Shown piece after piece: positions 8,416 through 26,609 of a stretch of DNA of 64,000 nt (position 1 is the first letter of the stretch; the number at the start of each line of letters is the position of its first letter). The notes beneath the pieces were generated by a model. The model saw only the letters and a list, made by a program, of their open reading frames with translations, ran no database searches and was not told the DNA's origin. The stretch lies in assembly GCF_025725665.1 (NCBI RefSeq), contig NZ_CP107009.1, positions 2,232,001-2,296,000 on the forward strand. Reading direction: 5' to 3'. Source of the stretch: Halomonas sp. LR3S48. Its GTDB lineage: Bacteria > Pseudomonadota > Gammaproteobacteria > Pseudomonadales > Halomonadaceae. Position numbers and translations under genes: made by a program.

Positions 8416-11205
8416 TCAGCCGGCGTGGGCCTTCTCCTTCTCTTTGCGCGAGGGTGCCGCTTCCGCCGCTGCATCGCCTTGGCGTCGGCGCAGCAGCCAC
8501 TTCTCCGCCTCCACGACGAGAAACACCGCAACGCTGGCGACGGCGATGACCGCCCAGTGCAGCAGGGAGAGGCCCTCTGTTCCGAAGATCATTTGCATGA
8601 AGGGCAGGTAGGTCCAGCCGAGCTGGAACAGTACCACCATCGCAATGGCGATCAGCGCGGCGCGGCTGCCGAACAGCCCCCGCCACGACAGGCTGCTGTC
8701 GAGCAGGTAACGGCTGTTGATCAGATAGACGATCTCGCCCGCCACCAGCATGTTGACCGCCCCGCTGCGCGCCAGCGCCTCGCTGCCGCCCTGGCCGTGC
8801 AGGATCCAGGCGAAGATGCCGAACACGCCGAGCACCAGCAACAGCGAGACGAGGATCACACGCCACAGCATGAACATGTCGAGCAGCGGGGCGTGAGGGT
8901 CGCGCGGCTGGCGTGTCATGACGTTCTCCTCGGCGGACTCGAAGACCAGTGCGATACCCAGCGTCACGGCGGTGATCATGTTGACCCACAGCACCTGCAG
9001 CCCGGTGATCGGCAAGGTAAGGCCCGCCACGATCGCCAGCAGGATGGCCAGGCTCTCGGCGCCGTTGGTCGGCAAAATGAAGGTGATCGATTTGCGAATG
9101 TTGTCGTAGACCTTTCGCCCCTCGGCCACGGCGGCGACGATGGTGGCGAAGTTGTCGTCGGTGAGGACCATCTCGGCGGCCTCCTTGGCCGCCTCAGTGC
9201 CCTGGACGCCCATCGCCACGCCGACGTCGGCGCGTTTCAGCGCCGGCCCGTCGTTGACCCCGTCGCCGGTCATCGCGCAGATGCCGCCGCGCGCCTGCAT
9301 CGCCTTGACCAGGCGCAGCTTGTGCTCGGGAGCCGCCCGGGCGTAGACATCGACCTCGGTGATCTCGCGCTCCAGCTCCTCGTCGCTCATCTCTTCGATC
9401 TCGTGGCCGCTCAGGGCACGATCCGTGCGGGCGAAGCCAAGCTGGTCGGCGATGGCCCGCGCGGTGACCGCATGGTCGCCAGTGACCATCACCGGACGGA
9501 TTCCGGCCTGTTGACAGTTCTTGACCGCCTCGATGGCGGCCTCACGTGGTGGGTCGAGCAGGCCCACGATGCCGAGCAGCACCAGCCCCTCTTCGGCGTC
9601 GGCATCGCTGAGCTCTCCCGTCAGGTCGTCGGCCGGTTTCTCGGCCAGGGCGAGCACGCGCAGCCCACGGGAGGAGAGTTCATGGATGCGCTCCTCCCAG
9701 GCTTCTCGGTCAAGCTCGGCGTCGCCGTCGCTACCACGCTCGCGGGAACACATCTCAAGCAGGCGATCGGGGGCGCCCTTGACCAGCAGGCGCTTGCCGT
9801 CGTGCTCGTTGAGGGTGGCCATGTACTTGCGCTCGGAGTCGAAGGGGATGGCATCCTGGCGGGCATGGGCGTCGTGCAGTTCACGCGTGTCGATACCCGC
9901 CTTGGCGGCCGCCACGACCAGCGCGCCCTCGGTGGGGTCGCCGTTGATGCACCAGCCATTGTCCTCCTGGTCGAGGTCGGCGTCGTTGCATAACGCCCCG
10001 ACTTCGAGGAAGCGGGCCAGGGCGGGGTAGTCCTGCAGCGATATCGCCTCGCCGAACTCGTTCTCCTTGTTCTCTTCGTCGCGCGGCGCCAGGTGCAGGT
10101 CGCCCTCGGGAGCAAAGCCGATACCGGAGAGTCGGAACTCGCCCTCGGGCAGCCAAATGGCCTGGGCAGTCATCTCGTTGCGGGTCAGGGTGCCGGTCTT
10201 GTCGGAAAAGATCGTCGAGATCGAACCCAGCGTTTCGACCGCCGGCAGGCGCCGCACAATGGCATTCTTGCGGGCCATGGCCTGCACGCCGAGCGCCAGC
10301 GAGATGGTCACGATTGCCGGCAGCCCTTCGGGGATGGCGGCCACCGCGAGCCCTACGCTGGCCATGAACATTTCGGTCCACGGCTGGCCATGAACCAGCA
10401 CGCCAAAGGCCCCCGTCAGCAGCGCGGCGCCGACGATGAACAGCGCCAGGATGCGCCCGGCGCGATCGAGCTGCTCGACCAGCGGCGTCTTGAGCTTTTC
10501 CACGCCTCTCAGCATCTCCGAGATGCGGCCGATCTCGGTATGCTCGCCCGTTTCAACCACGACCCCGGTCGCGGTGCCCTTGGCCACGATGGTGCCGGCG
10601 AACAGCATGTCGCTGCGCTCGGCCAGATCCACATCTTCGTCGACTGCCTCACCGGCCTTGTCCACCGGCGTAGACTCGCCGGTCAGGGCCGCTTCCTCCG
10701 TACTCAGCCGCTTGGCCTCGAGAATGCGCAGGTCGGCGGGCACGCGGTTGCCGCTTTCCACCTGCACGATATCGCCGGGAACGAGCTCCTCGGCGTCGAT
10801 CTGGATCTCACGCCCGCTGCGCAGGACCGAGGCCTGGGGCGAGAGCATGCCGCGAATGCTATCCAGGGCCTTCTCGGCCTTGCCCTCCTGAAAGAAACCG
10901 ATCAGGGCGATGATCACCACCACGCCGAGGATGACGGCGGCATCGAGGGGCTTGCCCAGCAGCAGGCTGGCAACCGCCGCGACGATCAGAATCAGCATCA
11001 GCACGTTGTTGAACTGCGCCAGCAGCCGTTTCCACCAAGGCTGGGCCTCTTCCTGCTGCAATCGGTTGGGGCCGTACTGCTCCAGCCGCCGCTTGGCCTC
11101 GTCGTCGTCCAGACCTTTCGATTCGGCCTCGAGGCGTTCGAGCGCCTCGTCAGCGGTCATGGCGTGCCAAGGCGTACGCTCATCCTGTTCGTCGCGTGCG
11201 GGCAT
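8416..11205 (-). CDS. P-type cation-transporting ATPase (type II, PEGLP), copy 1
   Basis: A 929-residue P-type ATPase with the cation-ATPase N-terminal domain, actuator motif LTGES (about 174-178), membrane motif IPEGLPA (about 291-297) and phosphorylation site DKTGTL with Asp335. The hinge motif is TGDGVNDGPALK, and six C-terminal helices close the protein. PEGLP marks type II pumps of the Ca2+ (SERCA/PMR1-like) or Na+/K+ class rather than MgtA (PEMLP). Ion specificity cannot be read here. ATG 11205 has an AGGAG 6-10 nt upstream; a longer open frame extends to 11298 but lacks a site. The downstream member of a tandem pair, about 90 bp after its paralogue. It probably supports ion homeostasis in a salt-tolerant cell. 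Confidence 0.9.
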   Translation of the reverse strand: MPARDEQDERTPWHAMTADEALERLEAESKGLDDDEAKRRLEQYGPNRLQQEEAQPWWKRLLAQFNNVLMLILIVAAVASLLLGKPLDAAVILGVVVIIALIGFFQEGKAEKALDSIRGMLSPQASVLRSGREIQIDAEELVPGDIVQVESGNRVPADLRILEAKRLSTEEAALTGESTPVDKAGEAVDEDVDLAERSDMLFAGTIVAKGTATGVVVETGEHTEIGRISEMLRGVEKLKTPLVEQLDRAGRILALFIVGAALLTGAFGVLVHGQPWTEMFMASVGLAVAAIPEGLPAIVTISLALGVQAMARKNAIVRRLPAVETLGSISTIFSDKTGTLTRNEMTAQAIWLPEGEFRLSGIGFAPEGDLHLAPRDEENKENEFGEAISLQDYPALARFLEVGALCNDADLDQEDNGWCINGDPTEGALVVAAAKAGIDTRELHDAHARQDAIPFDSERKYMATLNEHDGKRLLVKGAPDRLLEMCSRERGSDGDAELDREAWEERIHELSSRGLRVLALAEKPADDLTGELSDADAEEGLVLLGIVGLLDPPREAAIEAVKNCQQAGIRPVMVTGDHAVTARAIADQLGFARTDRALSGHEIEEMSDEELEREITEVDVYARAAPEHKLRLVKAMQARGGICAMTGDGVNDGPALKRADVGVAMGVQGTEAAKEAAEMVLTDDNFATIVAAVAEGRKVYDNIRKSITFILPTNGAESLAILLAIVAGLTLPITGLQVLWVNMITAVTLGIALVFESAEENVMTRQPRDPHAPLLDMFMLWRVILVSLLLVLGVFGIFAWILHGQGGSEALARSGAVNMLVAGEIVYLINSRYLLDSSLSWRGLFGSRAALIAIAMVVLFQLGWTYLPFMQMIFGTEGLSLLHWAVIAVASVAVFLVVEAEKWLLRRRQGDAAAEAAPSRKEKEKAHAG

Positions 11206-11294
11206 GTTGCTCCTCCTGAGCTCTGGTTCCTCCCCGGTGTTTCTAGGGGTAGCACACTCAAGGCGAAGCTGCAGGTGGGGCGGGTAGCGTAATG

Positions 11295-14072
11295 TCACTG
11301 CGTCCTGGGCGTCGTGCCTCGCGGTCTTGCGCTATCGGAGTGGCGTCTCTTCGGCCCGTTTTTCGCCCTGCTGCGCAACAGGCACTTCTCCAGCTCGACG
11401 ACGAGAAACAGGGCGATGCTGCAACCGACTACGAGCAACCAATGGCGCGGACCGAGCGCAGCGCTATCGAATACCGCCTGCATGAAGGGCAGGTAGGTCC
11501 AGGCGAGCTGCAACACCAGTACGAGCCCGATGGCGATCCACACCGGACGGCTGCCGAAAAGTCCCTGCAGGGAGAGGTTGCTGCGCAGCAGGTAGCGGCT
11601 GTTGATCAGGTAGGCCGCACTGCCCATGACCAGCGTATTGACGGCACCGGCGCGAGCGACGGCTTCGTCGCCTTCGACGTGAAGCAGCCAACTGAACATG
11701 CCGAACACGGCGATGAGCAGTAGCAGGGAGACGAAAGCGACGCGCCAGAGCAGGAACAGATCGAGCAGGGCGGCGGTGGGGTCGCGTGGACGCCGCCGCA
11801 TCAGGTTTTCCTCTCCCTTCTCGAAGGCCAGCGCCAGGCCCAGGGTCACGGCGACCACCATGTTGACCCACAGCGCCTGCAGCGGAGTGATGGGCAGCTG
11901 CGTCCCGGCCAGCACGGCGAGCATGATCGCCAGGCCCTGGGCACCGTTGGTGGGCAGCAGGAAGGTCACCGTCTTGCGGATATTGTCGTAGACCTTGCGA
12001 CCCTCCTCGATGGCGCCAACGATGGTGGCGAAGTTGTCGTCGGCCAATACCATCTCGGCGGCTTCCTTGGCCGCCTCGGTGCCCTGGATGCCCATCGCCA
12101 CGCCGACGTCGGCGCGCTTGAGCGCCGGACCGTCGTTGACACCGTCACCGGTCATCGCGCAGATGCCGCCGCGGGCCTGCATCGCCCTGACCAGGCGCAG
12201 CTTGTGCTCGGGGGCGGCACGGGCGAACACGTCCACCTCGTCGATGCATCTCTCCAGCTCGGCGTCGCTCATGGCCTCCACGTCGCGGCCGGTCAGGGCG
12301 CGTTCGGTATTGTCGAAGCCGAGCTGCCGGGCGATGGTCAGCGCCGTGACGGCATGGTCCCCGGTAACCATGATCGGGCGGATGCCGGCCGAGAGGCAGC
12401 GCTCGACCGCCCGTATCGCCTCTTCCCTGGGCGGGTCGAGCAAGCCGACGAGACCCAGGAGGACCAGGCCTTCCTCGGCATGTGTCTCGTCAAGTTCCGA
12501 GGCGGCATGGATCGGCTTCTCTGCCAGTGCCAGTACGCGCAAGCCGCGGGCGGAGAGGGCATGGATCCTCTGCTCCCATTCGCTCGGATCGAGTTCGGCA
12601 TCGCCAGCCTCGGTGCGCACTCGGTGGCACATCTCGAGCAGCCGGTCCGGCGCCCCCTTCACCATCAGCGTGGGCTGGCCGTCCACCTCGTGCAGGGTGG
12701 CCATGTACTTGCGCTCGGACTCGAAGGGGATGGCATCGTGGCGGTCGTGGCGGCCCCGCAGCGTGCCGGCATCCAGACCCGCCTTGGCCGCCGCCACGAC
12801 CAGGGCGCCCTCCGTGGGGTCGCCGTGGATCCGCCAGAGCCCTGTCTCGTCCCTGGCCAGTTCGGCATCGTTGCAGAGCACGCCCACCTTGAGGAAGTGG
12901 CGCAGGGCATGATGGTTGTCCAGGTCCAGCGGTTCGCATGCGGCAATGCCATCGCCGGCGGGCAGAAAACTGCCCTCGGGAGCGAAGCCGACGCCGGTCA
13001 CGGCAATCTCGCCCTCCGGTAGCCAGATGGCCTGGGCGGTCATCTCGTTGCGGGTCAGTGTGCCGGTCTTGTCGGTGAAGATGGTGGAGATGGACCCCAG
13101 CGTCTCGACGGCGGGCAGGCGGCGAATGATGGCATTGCGCCGGGCCATGGCCTGGACACCCAGCGCCAGGCCGATGGTGACGATGGCCGGTAGCCCTTCG
13201 GGAATGGCCGCCACCGCGAGCCCTACGGCCGCCATGAACATTTCGCTGGCGGGCTGGCCATGGACGAACGCGCCGATCGCCGCGGTGACGACGGCAGCGC
13301 CCAGAATGAAGATGGCCAGCACGCGACCGGCGCGGTCGAGCTGACGCAGCAGTGGCGTCTTGAGCTTCTCCACGCCGCGCAGCATCTCGGAGATGCGCCC
13401 GATCTCGGTCTCGATTCCGGTGGCCACGACGACGCCCTGGGCGGTGCCCTGGGCAACGATGGTGCTGGCGTAGGCCATGCTGCTGCGTTCGGCCAGATCG
13501 GTCGCCTCGGCGACCGGCGCGGTCAGCTTGTCGACGGCCACCGATTCGCCCGTGAGGGCGGCCTCCTCGGTGCGCAGTCGGTTGGCCTGCAGCAGGCGCA
13601 GGTCGGCGGGCACCCGGTCACCGCTCTCGAGCAGCACGATGTCGCCCGGCACCAGCGTCTCGGCCGGGACGGTCTGGCGGTGTCCGTCGCGCATTACCTT
13701 GGCCTGCGGCGATAGCATGCCGCGAATGCTCTCCAGGGCATGCTCGGCCTTGCCTTCCTGAACGAAGCCGATCAGCGCGATGATCGTCACCACGCCGACG
13801 ATGGCCAGGGCATCGAGACGGTGCCCCAGCGCCAGGCTGGCGATAGCGGCGACGATCAGGATCATCATGAGCAGGTTGTTGAACTGCTCCAGCAGGCGCT
13901 TCCACCAGGGTCGCGCGGCCTGTTCCCGTAGTTGATTGGGACCATGCTCGGCGAGACGTTCAGCGGCAGCCTCGGTGGCGAGACCTTCGGGACGACTCTC
14001 AAGCCTCGTCAGCGCCTCATCGGCAGAGACGGCGTGCCAGGAACACCGTGGGGGTTGGGTGGGCATGTCCAT
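11295..14072 (-). CDS. P-type cation-transporting ATPase (type II, PEGLP), copy 2
   Basis: A 925-residue paralogue of the neighbouring pump, closely similar over its whole length. LTGES lies at about 173-177, IPEGLPA at about 290-296 and DKTGTL with Asp334; TGDGVNDGPALK is identical. ATG 14072 and ATG 14066 are both possible, two codons apart, with GCGGAG just upstream. It precedes copy 1 on the same strand, so the two may be cotranscribed. The main differences lie in the nucleotide-binding domain around residues 370-400 and the extreme ends. The tandem arrangement implies duplication followed by partial divergence; whether the ions differ is unknown. Confidence 0.9.
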   Translation of the reverse strand: MDMPTQPPRCSWHAVSADEALTRLESRPEGLATEAAAERLAEHGPNQLREQAARPWWKRLLEQFNNLLMMILIVAAIASLALGHRLDALAIVGVVTIIALIGFVQEGKAEHALESIRGMLSPQAKVMRDGHRQTVPAETLVPGDIVLLESGDRVPADLRLLQANRLRTEEAALTGESVAVDKLTAPVAEATDLAERSSMAYASTIVAQGTAQGVVVATGIETEIGRISEMLRGVEKLKTPLLRQLDRAGRVLAIFILGAAVVTAAIGAFVHGQPASEMFMAAVGLAVAAIPEGLPAIVTIGLALGVQAMARRNAIIRRLPAVETLGSISTIFTDKTGTLTRNEMTAQAIWLPEGEIAVTGVGFAPEGSFLPAGDGIAACEPLDLDNHHALRHFLKVGVLCNDAELARDETGLWRIHGDPTEGALVVAAAKAGLDAGTLRGRHDRHDAIPFESERKYMATLHEVDGQPTLMVKGAPDRLLEMCHRVRTEAGDAELDPSEWEQRIHALSARGLRVLALAEKPIHAASELDETHAEEGLVLLGLVGLLDPPREEAIRAVERCLSAGIRPIMVTGDHAVTALTIARQLGFDNTERALTGRDVEAMSDAELERCIDEVDVFARAAPEHKLRLVRAMQARGGICAMTGDGVNDGPALKRADVGVAMGIQGTEAAKEAAEMVLADDNFATIVGAIEEGRKVYDNIRKTVTFLLPTNGAQGLAIMLAVLAGTQLPITPLQALWVNMVVAVTLGLALAFEKGEENLMRRRPRDPTAALLDLFLLWRVAFVSLLLLIAVFGMFSWLLHVEGDEAVARAGAVNTLVMGSAAYLINSRYLLRSNLSLQGLFGSRPVWIAIGLVLVLQLAWTYLPFMQAVFDSAALGPRHWLLVVGCSIALFLVVELEKCLLRSRAKNGPKRRHSDSARPRGTTPRTQ

Positions 14073-14744: not shown

Positions 14745-16091
14745 TCAGAGCATCATCGCTGCCAGCCAGCCGAAACCGATCAGCGGCAAGTTGTAGTGCA
14801 GGAAGGTGGGCACCACAGTATCCCAGATGTGGTCGTGCTGGCCGTCGGCGTTGAGCCCGGCGGTGGGGCCGAGAGTCGAGTCCGAGGCCGGCGAGCCGGC
14901 GTCGCCCAGGGCGGCGGCGGTGCCCACCAGGGCGATAGTGGCCATGGGCGAGAAACCGAAGCTCAGCGCCAGCGGCACGTAGAGCGAGGCGATGATCGGC
15001 ACGGTGGAGAATGACGAGCCGATGCCCATGGTGATGAAGAGCCCGACGAGCAGCATGATCAATGCCGCCAGCCCTTTGTTGTCACCGATCAGCTCGGCCG
15101 AGCCTTCCACCAGCGCGGACACCTCGCCGGTCGCCTGCATCACCCCGGCGAAGCCGGCCGCGCTGATCATGATGAAACCTACCTGCGCCATCATGCGCAT
15201 GCCTTCGGTGAAGATACCGTCCTGCTCATGCCAGCGGAACACGCCGCTGACCGAGAGCAGGGCGAAGCCGAAGAGTCCGCCGAGCACCATCGAGCCGGAG
15301 AGCAACTGGGTGACGACCGTGCCTACCAGCGCCGCAGTGAGCACCGCCATCTGCCAAGGCGCCAGATGCCGGGCGGCCTGGGCCGGCGTCTCGTCGCCGT
15401 GGGCCAGGTCGCGGTCTTCATAATGGCGCGGCCGACGGTAGCTTAGGAGTGCCGCCACCGCGAGCCCCAGCGCCATGCCGCCGATGGGGATCAACATGGC
15501 CATGGGCACCATCCCCCGGGTGACCTCGAGGCCGAGTTCTGCGCCGCTCTCGTTGAGGTTGGCGAGCAGGATGTCGTTGAGAAAGATCGAGCCGAAGCCC
15601 ACCGGCAGCAACATGTAGGGAGCGGTGATGCCGAAGGTGATCACACAGGCGGCAAGTCGGCGATCCAGGCGCAGGTGGTTCATCAGCTTGAGCAGGGGCG
15701 GCACCAGCACCGGGATGAAGGCGATGTGCACCGGGATCAGGTTCTGCGAGCTCACCGCCGTGGCCAGCAGGGCGCCGAGCAGGGTGAAGGCGACCCAGCG
15801 TCGGTTCGCCGGCTGGTCATCGATATGCAGGCCGCGGATGGCACGCTCGGCCAGCAGCTCGGTGATGCCGGAGCGCGACAGGGCCACGGCGAAGGCACCC
15901 AGCACGGCGTAGGAGAGGGCGACGGTGGCGCCGTTGCCCAGCCCCTGGTTGAAAGCGTCCATGATGTCGCCAATGGGCAGGCCTGCCACCAGGCCTCCCA
16001 CCAGACTGGCGGCGATCAGGGCGAAAACGACGGAGACGCGGGCAAGGCTGAGGGTGACCATGACCAGGATGGCCAGAACGATGGCATTCAT
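14745..16091 (-). CDS. Na+/H+ antiporter-family carrier (NhaC/YuiF-like), possible histidine permease
   Basis: A 448-residue integral membrane protein with about 11-12 hydrophobic segments and a family-typical N-terminus (LVGGLVAGLPIGDIMDAFNQGLGNG). The C-terminus holds the conserved GDAGSPASDSTLGPTAG. The family is named for Na+/H+ exchange, but the B. subtilis YuiF relative has been described as a histidine permease. Its place directly after hutH favours amino-acid uptake. A terminator separates it from hutH, so it is probably expressed from its own promoter or by read-through. Substrate is inference. Confidence 0.8.
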   Translation of the reverse strand: MNAIVLAILVMVTLSLARVSVVFALIAASLVGGLVAGLPIGDIMDAFNQGLGNGATVALSYAVLGAFAVALSRSGITELLAERAIRGLHIDDQPANRRWVAFTLLGALLATAVSSQNLIPVHIAFIPVLVPPLLKLMNHLRLDRRLAACVITFGITAPYMLLPVGFGSIFLNDILLANLNESGAELGLEVTRGMVPMAMLIPIGGMALGLAVAALLSYRRPRHYEDRDLAHGDETPAQAARHLAPWQMAVLTAALVGTVVTQLLSGSMVLGGLFGFALLSVSGVFRWHEQDGIFTEGMRMMAQVGFIMISAAGFAGVMQATGEVSALVEGSAELIGDNKGLAALIMLLVGLFITMGIGSSFSTVPIIASLYVPLALSFGFSPMATIALVGTAAALGDAGSPASDSTLGPTAGLNADGQHDHIWDTVVPTFLHYNLPLIGFGWLAAMML

Positions 16092-16198: not shown

Positions 16199-17746
16199 TC
16201 AGTGGCTTGGCAGAAGCTCCAATGGCATCAGCTCGTTGAGCGCCCGCGTTGCGAGCAGCTGGATGGCACTCTCGATGTCCGGGGCGAAGAAGCGATCATG
16301 GTCGTAGTAGGACACCTGCTCGCGCAGGGCACGCCGCGCCTGTTCCAGGCGCGGCGTGCTCTTCATGCGCTGCTGATTCGAATCGAGTCGAAAATCGAGC
16401 CCTTGGCAAGCCGCCAGCCATTCGATGGCAACGATGCCACGCACATTGTCGGCCATTTCCCACAGCCGCTTGCCGGCGGCCGGGGCCATGGAGACGTGGT
16501 CCTCCTGGTTGGCCGAGGTGGGCAGGCTGTCGACGCTGTGGGGGTGAGCCAGGGCCTTGTTCTCGCTGGCCAGTGCGGCGGCGGTGACCTGGGCGATCAT
16601 GAAGCCGGAATTGACGCCGCCGTTCTCCACCAGAAAGGGCGGTAGCTGCGACATGTGAGTGTCCATCATCAATGACACGCGACGCTCGGTGAGCGAGCCG
16701 ATCTCGGCCAGCGCCAGGGCCAGGTTATCGGCGGCCATGGCTACCGGCTCGGCGTGGAAGTTACCACCGGAGAGGATGTCGCCTTCCTCGCTGAATACCA
16801 GCGGATTGTCCGATACCGCATTCACCTCGACGGCCAGCACCTCGGCGGCCTGGCGGATCTGGGTCAGCACCGCGCCCATCACCTGGGGCTGGCAACGCAG
16901 CGAGTAGGGGTCCTGCACCTTGTCGCAGTGGGCGTGGGAGTCGCTGATCTCGCTACGCTCGCCCAGCAGGTGGCGATAGGCCGCGGCGGCGTCGATCTGG
17001 CCGCGCTGGCCGCGGGCATCGTGGATGCGGGCATCGAAGGGCGCGCGCGAGCTGAGCGTGGCCTCCACGGTCAATGCGCCGCACACCGTGGCGGCGGCGT
17101 AGAGGTCCTCGGCCTCGAACAGGCCCTTGAGCGCGTAGGCGGTGGAGACCTGGGTGCCGTTGAGCAGCGCCAGGCCTTCCTTGGGCGCGAGGCTGAGCGG
17201 CTGGAGCCCGGCGATCTCGAGCGCCTGGCGGGCTGGTATCCATTCGCCGCGATGGCGGGCCTTGCCTTCGCCGAGCAGCACCACGCTCATGTGCGCGAGC
17301 GGCGCCAGGTCGCCGGAAGCGCCCACCGAGCCCTTGAGGGGAATGTGCGGGTAGACCTCGGCGTTGACCAGGGCGAGCAAGGCGTCGAGCACCTCGCGGC
17401 GGATGCCGGAGAAACCGCGCGCCAGGCTGTTGACCTTGAGCACCATGATCAGGCGCACCAGGGCGTCTTCCATGGGCTGGCCGACGCCGGTGGCATGCGA
17501 CAGCACCAGCGAGCGCTGCAGGTCTTCCAGATGATCGTGGTCGATGCGTGTCTGGGCCAGCAGGCCGAAGCCGGTATTGATGCCGTAGACCGTGCGATCC
17601 TCGGCCACGACGCGATTGACGCAGTCGACGGCGCGTTGAATGGCGGTGTCGGCGCTTTCGGGCAGCGTCACGTGCAGCGGCGCCTCGAAGACCTGGCGTG
17701 CCTGGGCCAGGGTCATGCTGCCGGGATTGATACTAAGATTAGACAT
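16199..17746 (-). CDS. hutH: Histidine ammonia-lyase
   Basis: A 515-residue histidase that deaminates L-histidine to urocanate. It has the intact MIO-forming Ala-Ser-Gly triad at 143-145 in [12 protein letters not shown]. The other active-site positions known from Pseudomonas HutH are present: Tyr in [10 protein letters not shown], His in LSHATGVG, Asn in LLNGTQ, Tyr and Arg in DPYSLRCQP, Phe in GNFHAEP, and Glu in NQEDHVSM. Last gene of the hut operon. Its start lies inside the end of the preceding lyase paralogue (34-nt overlap), suggesting translational coupling. A terminator follows. Confidence 0.97.
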
Positions 17747-19296
17747 GTCTGCCTCTTTCCAGGGTACAGGTGGGGGGCAAGTTTGATGAAGGCAGCCTGT
17801 CGAGACGTATCCTGAAGCAAGTGGCGAGCTGTCTGCAGATCCCGATGTAGGGGATGCTCTTCCTCATAATAGGGAATCACCTCTCGCAGTGCTTTCCAGG
17901 CCAACTCAGTACCTGGGGCGAAATCCTGGTCATCGATCAGGTCGAAAGCCTGGGAAGCCATCAGGTATTCAATGGCAATTAGCTGGAAAGCATTGTCGAG
18001 GGCCTGATCCAGCTTCAGGGCGGCGCTTTCCCCCAGGCTCAAGTGATCTTCTTGCAGTCCTGAGGTCAGGAAATTATCGATGACTGCGGGCTGGGCTAAG
18101 CGCTTATTGTCGGCGACCAACGAGGCTGCCGTGTACTGGGCAATCATCATGCCCGATTTGACTCCGCCGTCGTTGGTCAGGAACGGCGGCAGCCGACTGG
18201 CCTGGGGCGTCACGAGGCGATAGGCGCGGCGTTCGGAAATCGAGCCCCACTCGCACACGGCGATTGCCAATAGGTCGCATGCCATGGCAACTGAGGCACC
18301 ATGTGGGTTGGCGTTCGACACGACGCGGTAGCCATGCTCCGTCGCAACTACCAAGGGATTGTCGGTCGCCGAATCCAACTCACTGTCGATCTGCTTTGCT
18401 GCATGCGCGAATTGATCGCGGCAGGCGCCATGCACCTGGGGCATCGAGCGCAGGCTGAGAGCGTCTTGGAGGTGCTGGCCTTGACAGCGTGCGAGGCGCC
18501 GGCTGCCCTGCAACAGTCGGTACAGGTTGTCCCCAGCGTGCTGGACACCCTCATGCCGCTTGAGGCCCGTCACTTGGGGTAGCAGCGCATCCAACTGGCC
18601 GCCCAAGGCCTCGAAGCTCATGGCACCGACAATGTCGGCCCAGGCAGCCAGGCGGGCGGCATCCTCGAGGGCGAGGCAGGCCAGGCCGGTCATGGCCGGA
18701 GTGCCATTGACCAGGCTCAGGCCATCCTTGGGACCAAGGGTTAGTGGGGGCATGCCGATGACATCCAACGCCCGTCTGGCCGACATACGCTGGCCGTTGA
18801 ATTCGACCTCGCCGTGACCAATTAGCACCAGGCCGATGTGGGCCATATGGGTGAGGTAGCCGACCGAGCCTCGTGAGGGCACGATAGGTGTGATCTGCTC
18901 GTTCAGTAGTTGTAGCAGCCCTTTCACGACTGCAGGGCTGATGCCGGAGTAGCCGTGGCTGTAATTGATGACGGCGCAGCACATGATCGCCCGGACCTGC
19001 TCCGTCCGCAGTGGCGTACCCACACCACAAGCATGGCTCATCAGCGTATGGTGAGAGAGCCGCCGCAACTCGTCTCGCTCGAGTACTACATCGCAGAGGG
19101 CGCCCAATCCGGTATTGATCCCGTAGTGCGGTACCGTGGAAGATGCTATTTCCTCTACGGCCTGGCGCGCCGCGGCGATCCTCTCCCATGCGACCTGAGA
19201 CAGCGACAGGAGCGCGCCGTGACGCGCCACCCGGACCACTTGCTGCCATTCAACCGGCGTTGCGCCGAGCTCGATGCATTCGGCATGGTCATTCAT
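17713..19296 (-). CDS. Aromatic amino-acid lyase paralogue lacking the MIO triad; candidate betaine (trimethylamine) lyase
   Basis: A 527-residue HAL/PAL-fold protein that aligns with HutH end to end. The MIO-forming segment is deleted: residues 143-150 read GSVGYLTH where HutH reads [14 protein letters not shown]. Two further HutH active-site positions differ: the Tyr of DPYSLR is Ala278 (DALSLR) and the Phe of GNFHAEP is replaced (NANPHGA). Tyr58 (HYGINTG), His88, Asn196, Arg282 and Glu415 remain. It therefore cannot use MIO chemistry. Ergothionase, a HAL-family enzyme that eliminates trimethylamine, is the best precedent. The upstream, overlapping gene is a betaine-type carrier (ATGAATGA at 19296-19289). 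ATG 19296 was preferred over 19344 because GGAAAG precedes it at good spacing. Alternatives are a non-catalytic HutH partner or a decaying copy, but the intact frame argues against decay. Confidence 0.8.
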
Positions 19297-20881
19297 GGGC
19301 ACTTTCCGCCAATTGGCCCACTGCGTCTGGCTGATATTGTTCATGAGCCCCCCGCATAATGAAAGTTCTGGCCGCAGAGGCCACGATCAGTGCGAACAGG
19401 AATAGCACGGTGAATCCTCCTGCTGCGGCCAGGAACTTGATGCCATCCACGCCCTGGGCACCGCCGCCAAAGGCCACCATGATGTAGGCGATGACACCGA
19501 TCGAGAGGCCCCAGAGGATCTTCTGCTTGCGGGGTGCCTCTTCATCCGCCGTCATGTTCTTTGTGCAAATGGTGGCGATGGTCGATGACATCGAATCCGC
19601 GGCGGTCGAGAAGGAGATGATCAAGGTCAAGATGGCCAGCGGAATCAGCAGGGTGGATAGCGGCAAGTGCTGCAGGAAGCCCCATAACCCCGATACCGCG
19701 CCGCTCTCGGTTACTACCCCGATCAGGTCCAGGGTTCCGTCCATCTGCCACTTGATGGCCGACCCTCCCCAGATGGCGAACCAGACGATGCCGAATGCCG
19801 AGGGCAAGATCCAGTTGATGACGAGGAATTCGCGCAGTGTCCTACCGTAGGAGATGCGAGCCAGGAACAGCCCCATCAGCGGTGCATAAGCGATCCAGAT
19901 CGACCAGTCGTACAGGGTCCACCAGGTTACTAGAGCCTCGCCTCCCGACTCCTTTGTGTCGAATGACCACAGGAAGAAGTTGTCGAGCCAATAACCCAGG
20001 CTGGTTACCGACAGGCTGAGGATGTAGTTCAGCGGTCCGATAATCAGCAGGATGGCAACAAAGGCATAGAAGATGTAGGCATTGACCGATGACAGGACGC
20101 GGATGCCGCGCTTGAGCCCGGAGACCGCCGAGGTGATGAAGATGGCCGAAATGACCAGCGTCAGGATCAACCAGGTGGTGGGGTTCGAGGCGATGCCGTA
20201 TTCGACCTCGAGACCGGAGCTGATCAGGGTCAGGCCGGCGCCCAGAGACGAGGCGAGCCCCAGGGCAATCGCCAGTATGGAGATGACATCAACCACCGCG
20301 CGAACGAAGGGCTTGCGTTCGGTATTACCAAGAATGGGTATCAGAGTCGACGAGATTGAAAAGCGCTGTTGGCGGTTGAAGTGCATGTAGCCGATCATCA
20401 AGCCGACTATGGAATACATGGCGTAGGGAATGAAGCTCCAATTGTGAAAGCTCCTGGCCAACGCAAATATCGCGGCTTCGGCACTGCCAGGCTCGAAGGC
20501 TTGATTGCCAATCTCACCATAGACGTTGCCAAGGTAGATGATCGGCTCGTTGACCGAATAGGTCACTACGCCCGTGGCGATGCCGCCGGTTAGTGCCATG
20601 GCGAATGTCGATGCCATTGAAAATGTCGGCTTGGCGTTCTCTCCGCCTAGCCGAATATTGCCGACCTTGGAGAAGAATATGTAGGCTGTGACGCCCAGCG
20701 CCGCCACAGCCAATAGTTGGTAGAGCCAGCCGAAATCGGACAGAGATAGGTAGAACAACTGCTTGGCGACGCTGACTAGCAGCTCGTTATTAGCAAGACC
20801 AATGGTGACGGCCAGCAAGATGATGGCAAAGGCTGGAATGAATACGCTTCGATTCAGACTTTTCTTGGTTGGAATTGACAT
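19289..20881 (-). CDS. BCCT-family transporter in the hut operon
   Basis: A secondary carrier of the betaine/choline/carnitine family, about 530 residues with 12 expected helices. The family signature is visible: a glycine-rich helix (TGGIATGVVTYSVNEP), the TM8 block (DWSIWIAYAPLMGLFLARIS) and a late helix FSTAADSMSSTIA. Compared with BetP as I remember it (YWAWWISWSP), the TM8 aromatic box is altered, so the substrate may not be glycine betaine. BCCT carriers move trimethylammonium compounds. It is cotranscribed with, and overlaps, the MIO-less lyase gene. ATG 20881 was chosen over 20935 because the longer form would place an inverted repeat inside the coding sequence; the start is uncertain by 18 codons. 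Confidence 0.85.
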   Translation of the reverse strand: MSIPTKKSLNRSVFIPAFAIILLAVTIGLANNELLVSVAKQLFYLSLSDFGWLYQLLAVAALGVTAYIFFSKVGNIRLGGENAKPTFSMASTFAMALTGGIATGVVTYSVNEPIIYLGNVYGEIGNQAFEPGSAEAAIFALARSFHNWSFIPYAMYSIVGLMIGYMHFNRQQRFSISSTLIPILGNTERKPFVRAVVDVISILAIALGLASSLGAGLTLISSGLEVEYGIASNPTTWLILTLVISAIFITSAVSGLKRGIRVLSSVNAYIFYAFVAILLIIGPLNYILSLSVTSLGYWLDNFFLWSFDTKESGGEALVTWWTLYDWSIWIAYAPLMGLFLARISYGRTLREFLVINWILPSAFGIVWFAIWGGSAIKWQMDGTLDLIGVVTESGAVSGLWGFLQHLPLSTLLIPLAILTLIISFSTAADSMSSTIATICTKNMTADEEAPRKQKILWGLSIGVIAYIMVAFGGGAQGVDGIKFLAAAGGFTVLFLFALIVASAARTFIMRGAHEQYQPDAVGQLAESAHE

Positions 20882-20995: not shown

Positions 20996-22684
<1,689 letters not shown>

Positions 22685-22753: not shown

Positions 22754-23731
22754 TCAGTTATCCAGCGTGAGCTGGTGGATCAGGCGCGCCGCCGCCCGGG
22801 CGGTACGGCCATCGATATCGAAGCTGGGGTTGAGTTCGGCGATGTCGGCCAGGCGCAGCTTGCCGCTGTCGCGCACGGTCTCGACCAGCGTCTCGATCAT
22901 GGCCAGCGCTACGCCGCGCGCGGCGGGAGCACTGACGCCGGGCGCCTCGGAGGCCGGCAGCACGTCGAGATCGACGGTCAGGTAAAGGTGGTCGCAGTGC
23001 GCCATGAAGCGCTCCAGCTCTCGCTGAATGGCCTCGAGGCGGTGCGGCAGGAACTCGCGGTCCTCCTTGACCAGTACGCCGAGTTCGCGGGCGCGAGCAA
23101 ACAGTGCTCGGGTATTGCTGGCCCGACTGACACCCAGGCAGGCGTAGCGGAACGGCCAGCCGCGAGCCTGGCATGCATCGGCAATCTGGGCGAAGGGCGT
23201 GCCCGATGAGCGCACCTGGCCGGGGTCGCGCAGGTCGAAGTGGGCGTCGAGATTGATGATGCCGATCCGCGGCGTGGTTGCGCCACGCGATTCCATATGG
23301 CGAGCCAGGCCCGACCAACTGCCGAAGGCGACCTCATGGCCACCGCCTAGCACCAGCGGCAGGTGGCCGCTTTCCAGCAGGACGCTTACGCGCTCGGCCA
23401 GACGCTGCTGTGCCTTCTCCAGATCGTCGTTGCCGTGACAGGCCACGTCGCCGGCGTCAAAGACCGGTGCTGCACGATGCCAGGCCAGCGGCGCCAGGGC
23501 GTGGCGCAGCGCACGGGGGGCTGCGGCGGCACCGACACGTCCCTGGTTGCGTGCCACGCCGGCATCGCTGGCAAAGCCGAGCAGGGCGACACCCGGGCTG
23601 GCGTCGCGCTTGAGCGGCGTGACGACCTGGTGCCAGCGCTGGCTGTCGGGCTCCGGGTCTTCGCGTCCGGCCCACGGCGACATGTCGATGGCCGGGTCGG
23701 CCAAGTGAAGGTCGGTATTGGTTTCAGCCAT
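22754..23731 (-). CDS. hutG: Formimidoylglutamase
   Basis: A 325-residue ureohydrolase-superfamily enzyme that hydrolyses N-formimidoyl-L-glutamate to glutamate and formamide, the last step of this version of the pathway. The binuclear Mn2+ ligands are visible: [18 protein letters not shown] and [10 protein letters not shown] 23731 overlaps the hutI stop by 8 nt and follows GGGGGAG. Absence of hutF, and position in the hut operon, support direct formimidoylglutamate hydrolysis. It is about 70 bp upstream of hutU. Confidence 0.94.
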
Positions 23732-24947
23732 GGCTCGGCTCCCCCTTGAAAATGCGCTGACGCAGGCGGCCCGGCTGAACGGCGTAGGCCAGCTCGGCGG
23801 GCGATTCGACGTCCCACAGACACAAATCCGCCGGCGCCCCTTCCACGATGCGACCCAGCGAGCGATCGTGAAGGCCCAGGGCACGTGCGCCGTGAGCGGT
23901 CATGCCGGCCAAGGCCTCGCGTGGTGTCAGGCGGAACAGGGTGCAGGCGAGATTGAGCATCAGCGTGGGCATGAACAACGGCGAGCTGCCGGGGTTGGCA
24001 TCGGTGGCCACCGCCATGGGCACACCAGCCTCGCGCAGCGCGACGATCGGCGGGCGCTGGGTCTCGCGCAGGGTGTGGAAGGCGCCGGGAAGCAGCACCG
24101 CCGTGCTGCCGGCCTCTCGCAGGGCGGCGACACCGGCCTCGTCGAGGTATTCGATATGATCGGCGGAGAGGGCGCCATGGCGCGCCGCCATGGCGCTGCC
24201 ACCGAGATTGGAGAGCTGCTCGGCATGGGCCTTGATCGGCAGGCCATGGGCCTCGGCGGCTTCGAACACGCGCTCGCACTGCGCCACCGAGAAGGCGATC
24301 TTCTCGCAGAAGACGTCCACTGCATCGGCCAGGCGCTGTTCGGCGGCAGCGGGAATCATCTCGCGGCATACCAGATCGATGTAGCCATCGCTGTCGCCCT
24401 GGTACTCCGGCGGCAGGGCGTGAGCGCCGAGCAGCGTGGTGACCACCCGCACCGGTAGCGCTTCGCCCAGTCGTCGGGCCACGCGCAGCATCTTGAACTC
24501 GTCGTCGACGGTCAGGCCATAGCCGGACTTGATCTCCACCGTGGTGACGCCATCGTGCAGCAGCGCCTCCAGGCGTGGCTGGGCCAGCCGGAAGAGCTCT
24601 TCTTCGCTGGCGCCCCGGGTGGCGTGAACGGTGCTGAGGATGCCGCCGCCCTGGCGGGCGATCTCCTCGTAGCTCACGCCTTCCAGCCGCTTCTCGAACT
24701 CCCCGGCACGCGAGCCACCGAATACCAGGTGGGTGTGGCAATCGATCAGGCCCGGTGTCATCACGCCGCCACGGCCCAGTGTGTCGCAGGCTTCCGCTGT
24801 GGCGCGGTCGAGTTCGCGCATGGGTATGACGCGCTCGATTTTCTCTCCTGCCACCATCACTGCCATCGGCTCGGGCAAGGTGTCGTGGCCATCGAAGAGG
24901 GTGACGTCTCGCCACAGTCGGCGCGGCTGGTAGGGCTGTGCTGGCAT
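23724..24947 (-). CDS. hutI: Imidazolonepropionase
   Basis: A 407-residue amidohydrolase that opens 4-imidazolone-5-propionate to N-formimidoylglutamate. The metal site is HTHLVFGG. Other conserved blocks are [23 protein letters not shown] and TDANPGSSP, and the C-terminal amidohydrolase tail is complete. ATG 24947 was chosen because GGAG lies 6-9 nt upstream; in-frame ATG codons at 24959 and 24986 lack good sites, and the second would place the start within the operator region. First gene of the hut operon, 29 bp from a HutC operator. Confidence 0.95.
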
Positions 24948-24975
24948 TGTGGTCTCCATCTCGTTGTCACCGTAA

Positions 24976-24985
24976 TGTATATACA
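24976..24985. promoter_or_regulatory. HutC operator, hutI side
   Basis: TGTATATACA, embedded in a perfect 14-bp palindrome (AATGTATATACATT, 24974-24987). It matches the HutC/GntR-type hut operator core as I recall it. It lies 29 bp before the hutI start, where bound HutC would block initiation of the hut operon. Confidence 0.82.
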
Positions 24986-25195
24986 TTTAAGCGGTCCCGG
25001 TGTCAGCGTCAAGTCGATCACGTGACGTTTCGGGAGTCGAAGTCGCTTTGCCAGTTTCATGGTTCTTTCATCTTATTGTTATTTAAAGGGCAAAAGAAAA
25101 TTTTCGATGAATGACATTAGCGTGTCGGCAATCAGGATTAGACCAAGGTATAAGTCTTGCCGAGAGGCGGAGGGTGGCGTATGGATATCCCTTAA

Positions 25196-25205
25196 TGTAT
25201 ATACA
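25196..25205. promoter_or_regulatory. HutC operator, yjiH side
   Basis: A second exact TGTATATACA, 220 bp from the first and 73 bp before the yjiH start. Flanks are less symmetrical (CTTAA on the left, AATAAGG on the right). It suggests that the YjiH-family gene belongs to the HutC regulon. Confidence 0.8.
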
Positions 25206-25277
25206 AATAAGGCGCCCCGACATGACGTCGATGCAGGCCATCGAAGTCGCAGACAATCACAACGCGAGGTAAGCACC

Positions 25278-26609
25278 ATGGCGATACCGGAACCGGCCAC
25301 GCGCAATATTCGCAATGGCAGTTGGCTCACGGCGGCCAAGCTGTTCGTGCCCAGCCTGCTGGGTATCCTGATCTTCTTCGTCCCCGTCACCCTCGGTGGG
25401 AGACAGACCATCCTGCTCGACCACATGGTCACCGCCGCCCGTGGCTTGCTGGGCGAGGCTGCTGGCCTCTACGCGCTGGCGTTGATCGTGGCGGGGGCCG
25501 CCTATCCGCTGGTGGTAGGAAGTTGGAGGCACAGCGTGACGGAGCGCATCTTCACCGTGCTGAAGCTGGCCGGCGTGGCCGTGGCGGTAATGGCGTTGAC
25601 GGGATGGGGGCCGGCACTGCTGCATGAGCCGGACATGTTGCCGTTCCTGTTCGACAAGCTGGTGATACCCGTCGGGCTGATCGTGCCGATCGGTGCGGTA
25701 TTCCTGGCGCTGCTGATCGGTTACGGCCTGCTGGAACTCGTCGGTGTGCTGCTGCAGCCCGTCATGCGACCGATCTGGCGAACGCCGGGCCGCTCGGCCA
25801 TCGATGCGGTGGCATCGTTCGTCGGCAGCTACTCGATCGGGCTGTTGATTACCAATCGGGTCTACCAGGCGGGGCAGTACTCGGCGCGCGAGGCGGCCAT
25901 CATCGCCACCGGTTTTTCCACGGTGTCGGCCACCTTCATGATCATCGTGGCACGCACGCTCGAACTGATGAGCGTATGGAACCTGTACTTCTGGCTGACG
26001 CTGGCGATTACTTTCCTGGTGACCGCCATTACCGTGCGCTTGCCACCGCTTTCCCGCTTGGACGATGCCAAGACGGACGGCGAGCCCGAGTCCCTTGCGG
26101 GCAAGCGCATGGCAACCGCCTGGCGCACCGGACTGGACGTTGCCGGTCAGGCCCCGGCCTTGCATCGCAGCGTGGCGCTCAACGTGCGCGAGGGCCTGCT
26201 GATGGCGATCAGCATCCTGCCGTCGATCATGTCGGTGGGGCTGCTGGGGTTGCTCATCGCCAAGTACACACCGCTGTTCGAGTGGCTGGGCCTGCTGTTC
26301 TATCCCTTCGTGGCGATCTGGGGACTCGAGGATGGCATGGCGCTGGCCCAGGCCTCAGCGGCGGGGTTGGCCGAGATGTTCCTGCCGGCGCTGCTGATGA
26401 GCGAGGCCGAGTTCGTCGCCCGCTTTGCTGCTGGAGTGGTGTCGGTGTCCGCAGTGCTGTTTTTCTCCGCCTCCATTCCCTGCATTCTTGCCACCAGCAT
26501 TCCGCTGTCGGTGGGACGGATCGTGGCAGTCTGGTTCCTGCGCGTGGCGCTCAGCCTGATGCTGGCCGTGCCGGCAGGGTACCTGGCGCAGGCGCTGAGT
26601 GGCGGGTAG
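25278..26609 (+). CDS. YjiH-family membrane protein of the hut regulon
   Basis: A 443-residue polytopic protein with nucleoside-recognition/Gate-type repeats, as in YjiH. Early helices (LLGILIFFVPVTLGG) are followed by a conserved block (GRSAIDAVASFVGSYSIGLLITNRVYQAGQYSAREAA, residues about 172-208). A second block sits near the C-terminus (FLPALLMSEAEFVARF). Transport activity is suspected but no substrate is established. ATG 25278 follows GAGGT; upstream in-frame codons run through the HutC operator and are unlikely to be translated. Its divergent position and its own operator imply a role in uptake of histidine or a derivative. A paralogue lies at 43364-44746. Confidence 0.85.
   Translation: MAIPEPATRNIRNGSWLTAAKLFVPSLLGILIFFVPVTLGGRQTILLDHMVTAARGLLGEAAGLYALALIVAGAAYPLVVGSWRHSVTERIFTVLKLAGVAVAVMALTGWGPALLHEPDMLPFLFDKLVIPVGLIVPIGAVFLALLIGYGLLELVGVLLQPVMRPIWRTPGRSAIDAVASFVGSYSIGLLITNRVYQAGQYSAREAAIIATGFSTVSATFMIIVARTLELMSVWNLYFWLTLAITFLVTAITVRLPPLSRLDDAKTDGEPESLAGKRMATAWRTGLDVAGQAPALHRSVALNVREGLLMAISILPSIMSVGLLGLLIAKYTPLFEWLGLLFYPFVAIWGLEDGMALAQASAAGLAEMFLPALLMSEAEFVARFAAGVVSVSAVLFFSASIPCILATSIPLSVGRIVAVWFLRVALSLMLAVPAGYLAQALSGG

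Follow-up and report, generated by a model that had tools for sequence, protein, structure and literature searches.

In a 64,000-nucleotide stretch of Halomonas sp. LR3S48 (NZ_CP107009.1, positions 2,232,001 to 2,296,000; this whole stretch is called the window), the histidine-utilization (hut) genes include, next to a canonical histidine ammonia-lyase (HAL, the product of hutH), a second HAL-like lyase that lacks the triad forming the 4-methylideneimidazol-5-one (MIO) group and whose gene is coupled to that of a BCCT carrier. We consider it probable that this lyase and its importer take up hercynine (N-alpha-trimethylhistidine, or histidine betaine) and eliminate trimethylamine from it to yield urocanate. 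By this mechanism, the BCCT carrier would import hercynine, and the lyase, which keeps the scaffold of a histidase, its pocket for the imidazole and its base for the beta-proton, would eliminate not ammonia but trimethylamine, a leaving group for which MIO should not be needed. The resulting urocanate would then pass through HutU, HutI and HutG to glutamate, and a ProXWV-like ABC importer would supply this enzyme at most Pseudomonas-type loci that were examined. Hercynine, which fungi and actinobacteria make, is a precursor of ergothioneine.

Loss of the MIO triad in a conserved histidase paralogue

The Ala-Ser-Gly triad that makes MIO is present in HutH and absent from the lyase, whose loop is three residues shorter and reads GSVGYLTH, as an earlier note on this DNA had described, so that the enzyme cannot form MIO. 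Searching with the lyase protein returned 7413 relatives at E < 1e-20, and all residue counts given here refer to the best 120 of these 7413. The motif GSVGYLxHMAH was found in 120/120, the positions of HAL Tyr53, His83, Asn195, Gln277, Arg283, His330, Gln413 and Glu414 were likewise kept in 120/120, and the HAL Ala142 position was Tyr throughout (120/120). Two further positions were changed, with HAL Tyr280 replaced by Leu (119) or Met (1) and HAL Phe329 by Pro (114), Cys (5) or Ala (1). The Ala and Pro replacements that the earlier note had seen at two active-site positions are real and fall at HAL Pro279 and Phe329, the change of Tyr280 to Leu having escaped it; the Ala at 279 is little informative because three MIO-bearing HALs that we compared also have Ala there. 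The conserved Tyr, His, Asn, Arg and Glu lie at positions 74, 104, 213, 299 and 432 of the open reading frame (ORF), or 58, 88, 197, 283 and 416 when counted from Met17, so that the residues named earlier were all correctly identified and Tyr58 and His88 correctly placed, with Asn196, Arg282 and Glu415 each numbered one too low.

To interpret this pattern, we take His83 and Glu414 of HAL to hold the imidazole, Arg283 to hold the carboxylate and Tyr53 to take the beta-proton. On these assumed roles, the machinery for an imidazole amino acid and for beta-elimination appears to be kept, and the changes (MIO, Tyr280, Phe329) appear to cluster at the amino group. Unlike HutH of P. putida (1b8f), the window lyase has neither Ala-Ser-Gly nor Asp145, carries Leu for Tyr280 and Pro for Phe329, and is coupled to a carrier.

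The lyase gene is not decaying, since its ratio of nonsynonymous to synonymous substitution rates (dN/dS) is about 0.12–0.15 (0.15 to L003, 0.13 to L198, 0.12 to L200; for hutH and the same three relatives 0.09, 0.08 and 0.17). Given these ratios and the 120/120 homologues that carry it, the GYL motif is not a chance feature, and a simple pseudogene is ruled out by the residue invariance together with dN/dS. An AlphaFold model of the lyase (predicted local distance difference test score, pLDDT, 88.3) shows the full HAL fold, and the fold does not discriminate among activities, as the ergothionase structure 6s7j ranks eleventh in the comparison and trails the best-matching HAL by less than 3 Z units. 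Among family models, the lyase passes PF00221 (aromatic amino acid lyase), in keeping with its fold, falls under the HutH equivalog TIGR01225 (513.6 bits, cut-off 539.15) and barely exceeds the histidine ammonia-lyase subfamily NF006871 (524.3 bits, cut-off 524); none of the models in the NCBIfam scan is dedicated to this lyase type. Passing NF006871 and failing TIGR01225 may be the reason for the histidase label in databases. Judged from its sequence relatives, the lyase is a real and conserved clade member, and it is probably misnamed.

We assessed the spread of this lyase in genomes whose labels (a "Pseudomonas-type" genus and the family Halomonadaceae, the window's own) were taken from named homologues. 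Among the best 80 of the 222 loci that the genome scan yielded, 11 had the GYL motif (55–90% identity) and 69 (37–47%) had an Ala/Ser/Cys-Ser-Gly triad. The lyase was present in 12/390 genomes drawn from the order, in 23/275 of the family and in 137/199 of the Pseudomonas-type genus. In a class-wide draw of 274 genomes it was found in its own genome alone, two further matches (41–43% identity) both having the MIO triad, and it also occurs on an Erwinia plasmid. One Halomonas genome (L012 3641-9779, and L217) has hutU, lyase, hutI and hutF split over frames; this genome is 86% complete, and sequencing error is possible.

In the window, six genes lie on the minus strand in the order hutI-hutG-hutU-BCCT-lyase-hutH, which agrees with the placement of the carrier and lyase between hutU and hutH reported before. 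The lyase ORF (17713-19344, minus strand) encodes 543 amino acids, with the GYL motif stretch at residues 159-169, and its likely start is the ATG at 19296. Counted from there, the gene overlaps the BCCT stop TGA (19291-19289) by 8 nucleotides (56 if counted from the first lyase ATG, at 19344), so that the overlap claimed earlier holds, and the lyase stop in turn overlaps the hutH ATG by 34 nucleotides. The lyase and hutH are the two PF00221 genes of their genome. The features are as follows.

17713..19296, minus strand: MIO-less HutH-like lyase, proposed hercynine trimethylamine-lyase (PF00221, 533.7 bits; ORF open to 19344)
18847..18870, minus strand: GSVGYLTH, standing where HAL has its MIO-forming ASG loop and shorter than that loop by three residues
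19289..20881, minus strand: BCCT carrier, proposed hercynine importer (PF02028, 396.3 bits, above the cut-off of 27; ORF open to 20935)
16199..17746, minus strand: hutH, canonical histidine ammonia-lyase with the MIO triad (TIGR01225, 716.7 bits, cut-off 539.15)
20996..22684, minus strand: hutU, urocanate hydratase (TIGR01228, 990.6 bits, cut-off 375)
22754..23884, minus strand: hutG, formimidoylglutamase, whose true start is probably further in than the listed ORF (TIGR01227, 334.8 bits, cut-off 229.15)
23724..24986, minus strand: hutI, imidazolonepropionase (TIGR01224, 462.4 bits, cut-off 298.15)

Coupling of the lyase to quaternary-ammonium-type carriers

The neighbourhoods of 54 loci were counted, excluding the window itself, seven same-genome repeats and also L236 and L237, second-copy loci of a different type. 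From the 137 Pseudomonas-type lyase genomes, 30 matches came as loci, and the count took the regions of 5, plus 18/20 of another set. The gene directly upstream of the lyase was a BCCT carrier in 26 loci, a ProV-like ATPase in 22, a ProW-like permease in 1, an amino-acid ABC component in 4 and hutU in 1, placing a quaternary-ammonium-type carrier (BCCT or ProXWV-like) there in 49/54. The earlier note had proposed a survey of the BCCT/lyase pair, and the pairing does recur; it is not universal, as a ProXWV-like ABC system replaces BCCT at most of the Pseudomonas-type loci examined. L109, taken as their type, has OpuAC (PF04069, 208.3 bits) as its ABC binding protein and a permease similar to those for choline and glycine betaine.

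Carrier and lyase also go together across whole genomes. Within the family to which the window belongs, 22/275 genomes had the BCCT orthologue (E up to 1e-150), and every one of these 22 was among the 23 with the lyase. Among the 199 genomes of the Pseudomonas-type genus, 128 had both OpuAC and lyase, 9 the lyase alone, 1 OpuAC alone and 61 neither. Restricting this to the 186 HutH-positive genomes, the OpuAC protein (E up to 1e-120) was present in 127/136 with the lyase versus 0/50 without it, so the carrier goes with the lyase and not with histidine use as such; mere shared hut presence is thereby ruled out as the cause of coupling in this genus. The genomes counted are related rather than independent, and Fisher values for the coupling overstate its significance. 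Five of the nine lyase-only genomes were examined and hold a BCCT carrier (G697, G719, G787), an amino-acid ABC system (G774) or a ProW-like permease (G680). BCCT-lyase pairs also occur in stretches with no recognised hut gene (L005, from the same genome as L208, and L006, L207 and L213).

The window carrier resembles BetP and the trimethylamine transporter in belonging to the BCCT family. At what we take to be the four positions of the BetP aromatic box, the alignment shows residues that stay aromatic, one Trp having become Tyr. It is also distant from these proteins, the nearest solved chains reaching only about 200 bits (8zw8 207.7, BetP 203.9), and, unlike a glycine betaine BCCT, it scores below the equivalog cut-off of NF047988 (328.6 bits, cut-off 650). 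A precedent for the Pseudomonas binding-protein partner is EgtU, a quaternary-amine-class importer that takes up a histidine betaine and binds ergothioneine in an aromatic cage (PMC9732360, in its excerpted text). EgtU differs in that its affinity for hercynine is about 10,000-fold lower than that for ergothioneine (same excerpts), and the window carrier is a BCCT protein. For P. putida, hutXW (PP_3558/PP_3559) are described as putative histidine transporter genes in excerpts of PMC7096432.

Hercynine and competing candidate substrates

Three observations bear on the product. The hutU gene lies within 8 kb of the lyase in 43/54 loci, and HutU of the window, L109 and L011 scores 987–1012 bits as urocanate hydratase. 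The window protein reaches only 678.1 of the 930 bits required for thiourocanate hydratase and 709.2 of 880 for S-methyl thiourocanate hydratase (NF058530 and NF058531), and HutU of L109 and L011 likewise stays under both cut-offs. Behind the lyase on the Erwinia plasmid comes an NCS1 permease with 51% identity to the permease that follows hutU in L109, and we infer that this permease and P. aeruginosa PA5099, named a urocanate transporter in excerpts of PMC12977541, are orthologous. The HutU scores, the proximity of hutU and the NCS1 permease point to urocanate, and therefore to hercynine. The earlier note had suggested import of a histidine betaine and release of trimethylamine to give urocanate or thiourocanate, and our analysis favours its hercynine/urocanate half over its ergothioneine/thiourocanate half. 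Ergothioneine as the substrate was placed below hercynine on the HutU scores and the residues.

Some lyase genomes have no recognisable HutH, which bears on the hercynine proposal in two ways. Each of the 23 lyase genomes searched with PF00221 has at least one further match, not always HutH. When the window's HutH was used as query on 27 distinct lyase genomes, 22 had a HutH with an identity of at least 50% (one, G608, in pieces; MIO triad in those read), and no HutH at that level was found in G130, G561, G569, G574 and G576, all of one genus. In these five, the best match was the MIO-less lyase (38–39%), and hutU, BCCT, lyase and hutI stand in a row in all (loci L104, L211, L215, L210/L020 and L214). 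Their other PF00221 copies are a tyrosine-lyase-like protein and, in G130, also a GAAD-type lyase; the tyrosine-lyase-like copies of G130 and G574 group with a lyase of Pseudoalteromonas L102. Such an arrangement without HutH is expected if the operon's entry substrate need not be histidine, and because this active site is elsewhere found alongside HutH, it is likelier that these operons serve hercynine only than that the lyase acts as a histidase there. The HutH-less genomes nonetheless feed the idea of a histidine ammonia-lyase working without MIO, and we lowered our confidence in hercynine very slightly on their account. A MIO-free histidase, to which the narrow NF006871 pass also lends itself, is in our view improbable, given that the MIO loop, Tyr280 and Phe329 are all changed, that TIGR01225 is not reached, that most lyase genomes have a separate HutH, and that the HutH-less genomes (L266-L269) show the same lyase motif as the rest.

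The residue pattern itself tells only of an imidazole, a carboxylate and an altered amino site, and an amino-acid-type ABC system stands upstream in 4/54 loci. Both would suit another N-substituted histidine (mono- or dimethylhistidine, or ring-methylated or S-substituted betaines), from which the respective amine would be expelled and the acrylate passed to the hut pathway or an exporter. We hold this to be unlikely, though somewhat less so than a MIO-free histidase, since the carrier class in 49/54 loci recognises quaternary ammonium and since, by general chemistry, mono- and dimethylamine should be expelled less readily when MIO is absent. Least credible of all is that the paralogue is dead, or that it regulates HutH as a partner in mixed tetramers. 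HAL active sites are built from several subunits, which would allow such a partner; catalytic residues outside the amino site are invariant in the 120 homologues at the dN/dS given above, BCCT-lyase pairs occur away from hutH (which lies within 8 kb in 26/54 loci), and in five genomes there is no recognisable HutH with which it could pair.

Ergothionase, which would convert ergothioneine to thiourocanate and trimethylamine, shares more with the lyase, and we still rate it as a slight prospect. The Treponema denticola enzyme (6s7j) has the HAL fold without MIO, Leu at HAL Tyr280 (as in its two nearest compared relatives), and Tyr53, His83, Gln277, Arg283 and Glu414 kept, and its leaving group is the trimethylamine proposed here. 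In the tree, 21 MIO-less rows including 6s7j group together with support of 65/89 and a 22nd stands elsewhere, a weak grouping that does not establish a single MIO loss common to the lyase and ergothionase, and EgtU shows that quaternary-amine-class carriers can take histidine betaines (PMC9732360, excerpted text). Identity to 6s7j is about 30%, however, and the loop reads GSVGY-LTH rather than SSIGEGDITT, with Asn and not Ser at HAL 195, His and not Glu at 330, and Tyr and not Lys at 6s7j 383; the window lyase's partner, moreover, is a urocanate hydratase, with thiourocanate hydratase cut-offs missed in 3/3 HutU proteins scored. 6s7j and its two relatives share a loop Glu/Gln plus Asp, Ser at HAL N195 and Glu at H330, and two of these three ergothionase-type proteins have the Lys (Ala in one relative). 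An alignment with the T. denticola enzyme, which the earlier note had proposed, thus went against ergothionase: its loop residues, Ser194, Glu327 and Lys383, presumed to be essential ones, are replaced in 120/120 homologues. Ergothionase lacks MIO and has been identified in few genera, according to excerpts of PMC13405746.

A wider reading, which we put at just short of an even chance, is that the hut locus of most Pseudomonas-type species and some halophiles is a dual histidine/hercynine pathway. The "second HutH" would be a MIO-free hercynine trimethylamine-lyase, the adjacent ProXWV-like carrier would import hercynine and not histidine, and the enzyme would be one branch of a wider MIO-less set (GYL, GAAD and ergothionase types) splitting different aromatic betaines. 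If so, the "histidase" of databases would be a different enzyme in well over a hundred sampled genomes, the duplicated hutH of Pseudomonas would be explained, two kinds of carrier would have their substrate, and environmental trimethylamine would have one more source. The operon also offers a clean natural test of MIO's role, with the same scaffold side by side with and without it. P. aeruginosa PA5093 is a candidate second HutH-like gene, but PMC12772324 calls it hutG; the same paper reports, in the text excerpted, that P. aeruginosa grows less well on histidine once hutH is deleted. Excerpts of PMC8069873 describe two hutH genes next to each other in a Pseudomonas isolate.

As for where hercynine might come from, the genome of the window holds EgtB (C1:1683665-1684891) and EgtD (C1:1684968-1685852) side by side, so that hercynine can probably be made there on the way to ergothioneine. 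Only 5/23 lyase genomes have an EgtD that passes its cut-off, so own synthesis is not a general source. No linked trimethylamine-use genes were seen in the 10 neighbouring ORFs scanned at L005, L006, L009 and L010, and the matches listed in a literature search, with subscription journals mostly outside it, held no report of a hercynine-degrading enzyme or gene.

Further MIO-less lyases and neighbouring genes

Several other MIO-less lyases were encountered. L104 (3978-6445, minus strand) carries, downstream of hutG, a second one (GSLGAADLAQLAQ) accompanied by an OsmF-like binding protein; because its HAL His83 position is Arg, it is perhaps a lyase of a non-imidazole betaine. The same type occurs in Rhizobium L101 beside a CoA-transferase, MaoC and a glycine-betaine binding protein. 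A Klebsiella plasmid lyase (L100 2995-4527, plus strand) with GSVGYLIATAH is labelled aromatic amino acid ammonia-lyase and neighbours an OsmF-like binding protein, hutC, hutD and formimidoylglutamate deiminase. Two Pseudomonas-type genomes (L236 59-1432 and 8522-10039; L237 8571-10088) have a further GYL-type lyase with GSVGYISHMAH, 47% identical to the window lyase and 56% to the Rhizobium L096 type, and L236 also holds a third kind in which MIO is absent and Tyr280 kept. Ergothionase-type lyases with 6s7j as best PDB match lie on Sinorhizobium and Paraburkholderia replicons (L098 6001-7530 and L099 6001-7479), with no gene listed at either position in the plasmid table.

Within the window, a Na+/H+ antiporter-family carrier (14745-16091, minus strand) and a Gate-domain membrane protein (25059-26609, plus strand) adjoin the hut genes, as they do in several relatives, and are possible histidine or urocanate carriers. 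Further along (8416-14072, minus strand) lies a tandem pair of long, mutually similar cation-ATPase-like ORFs, read from translation alone.

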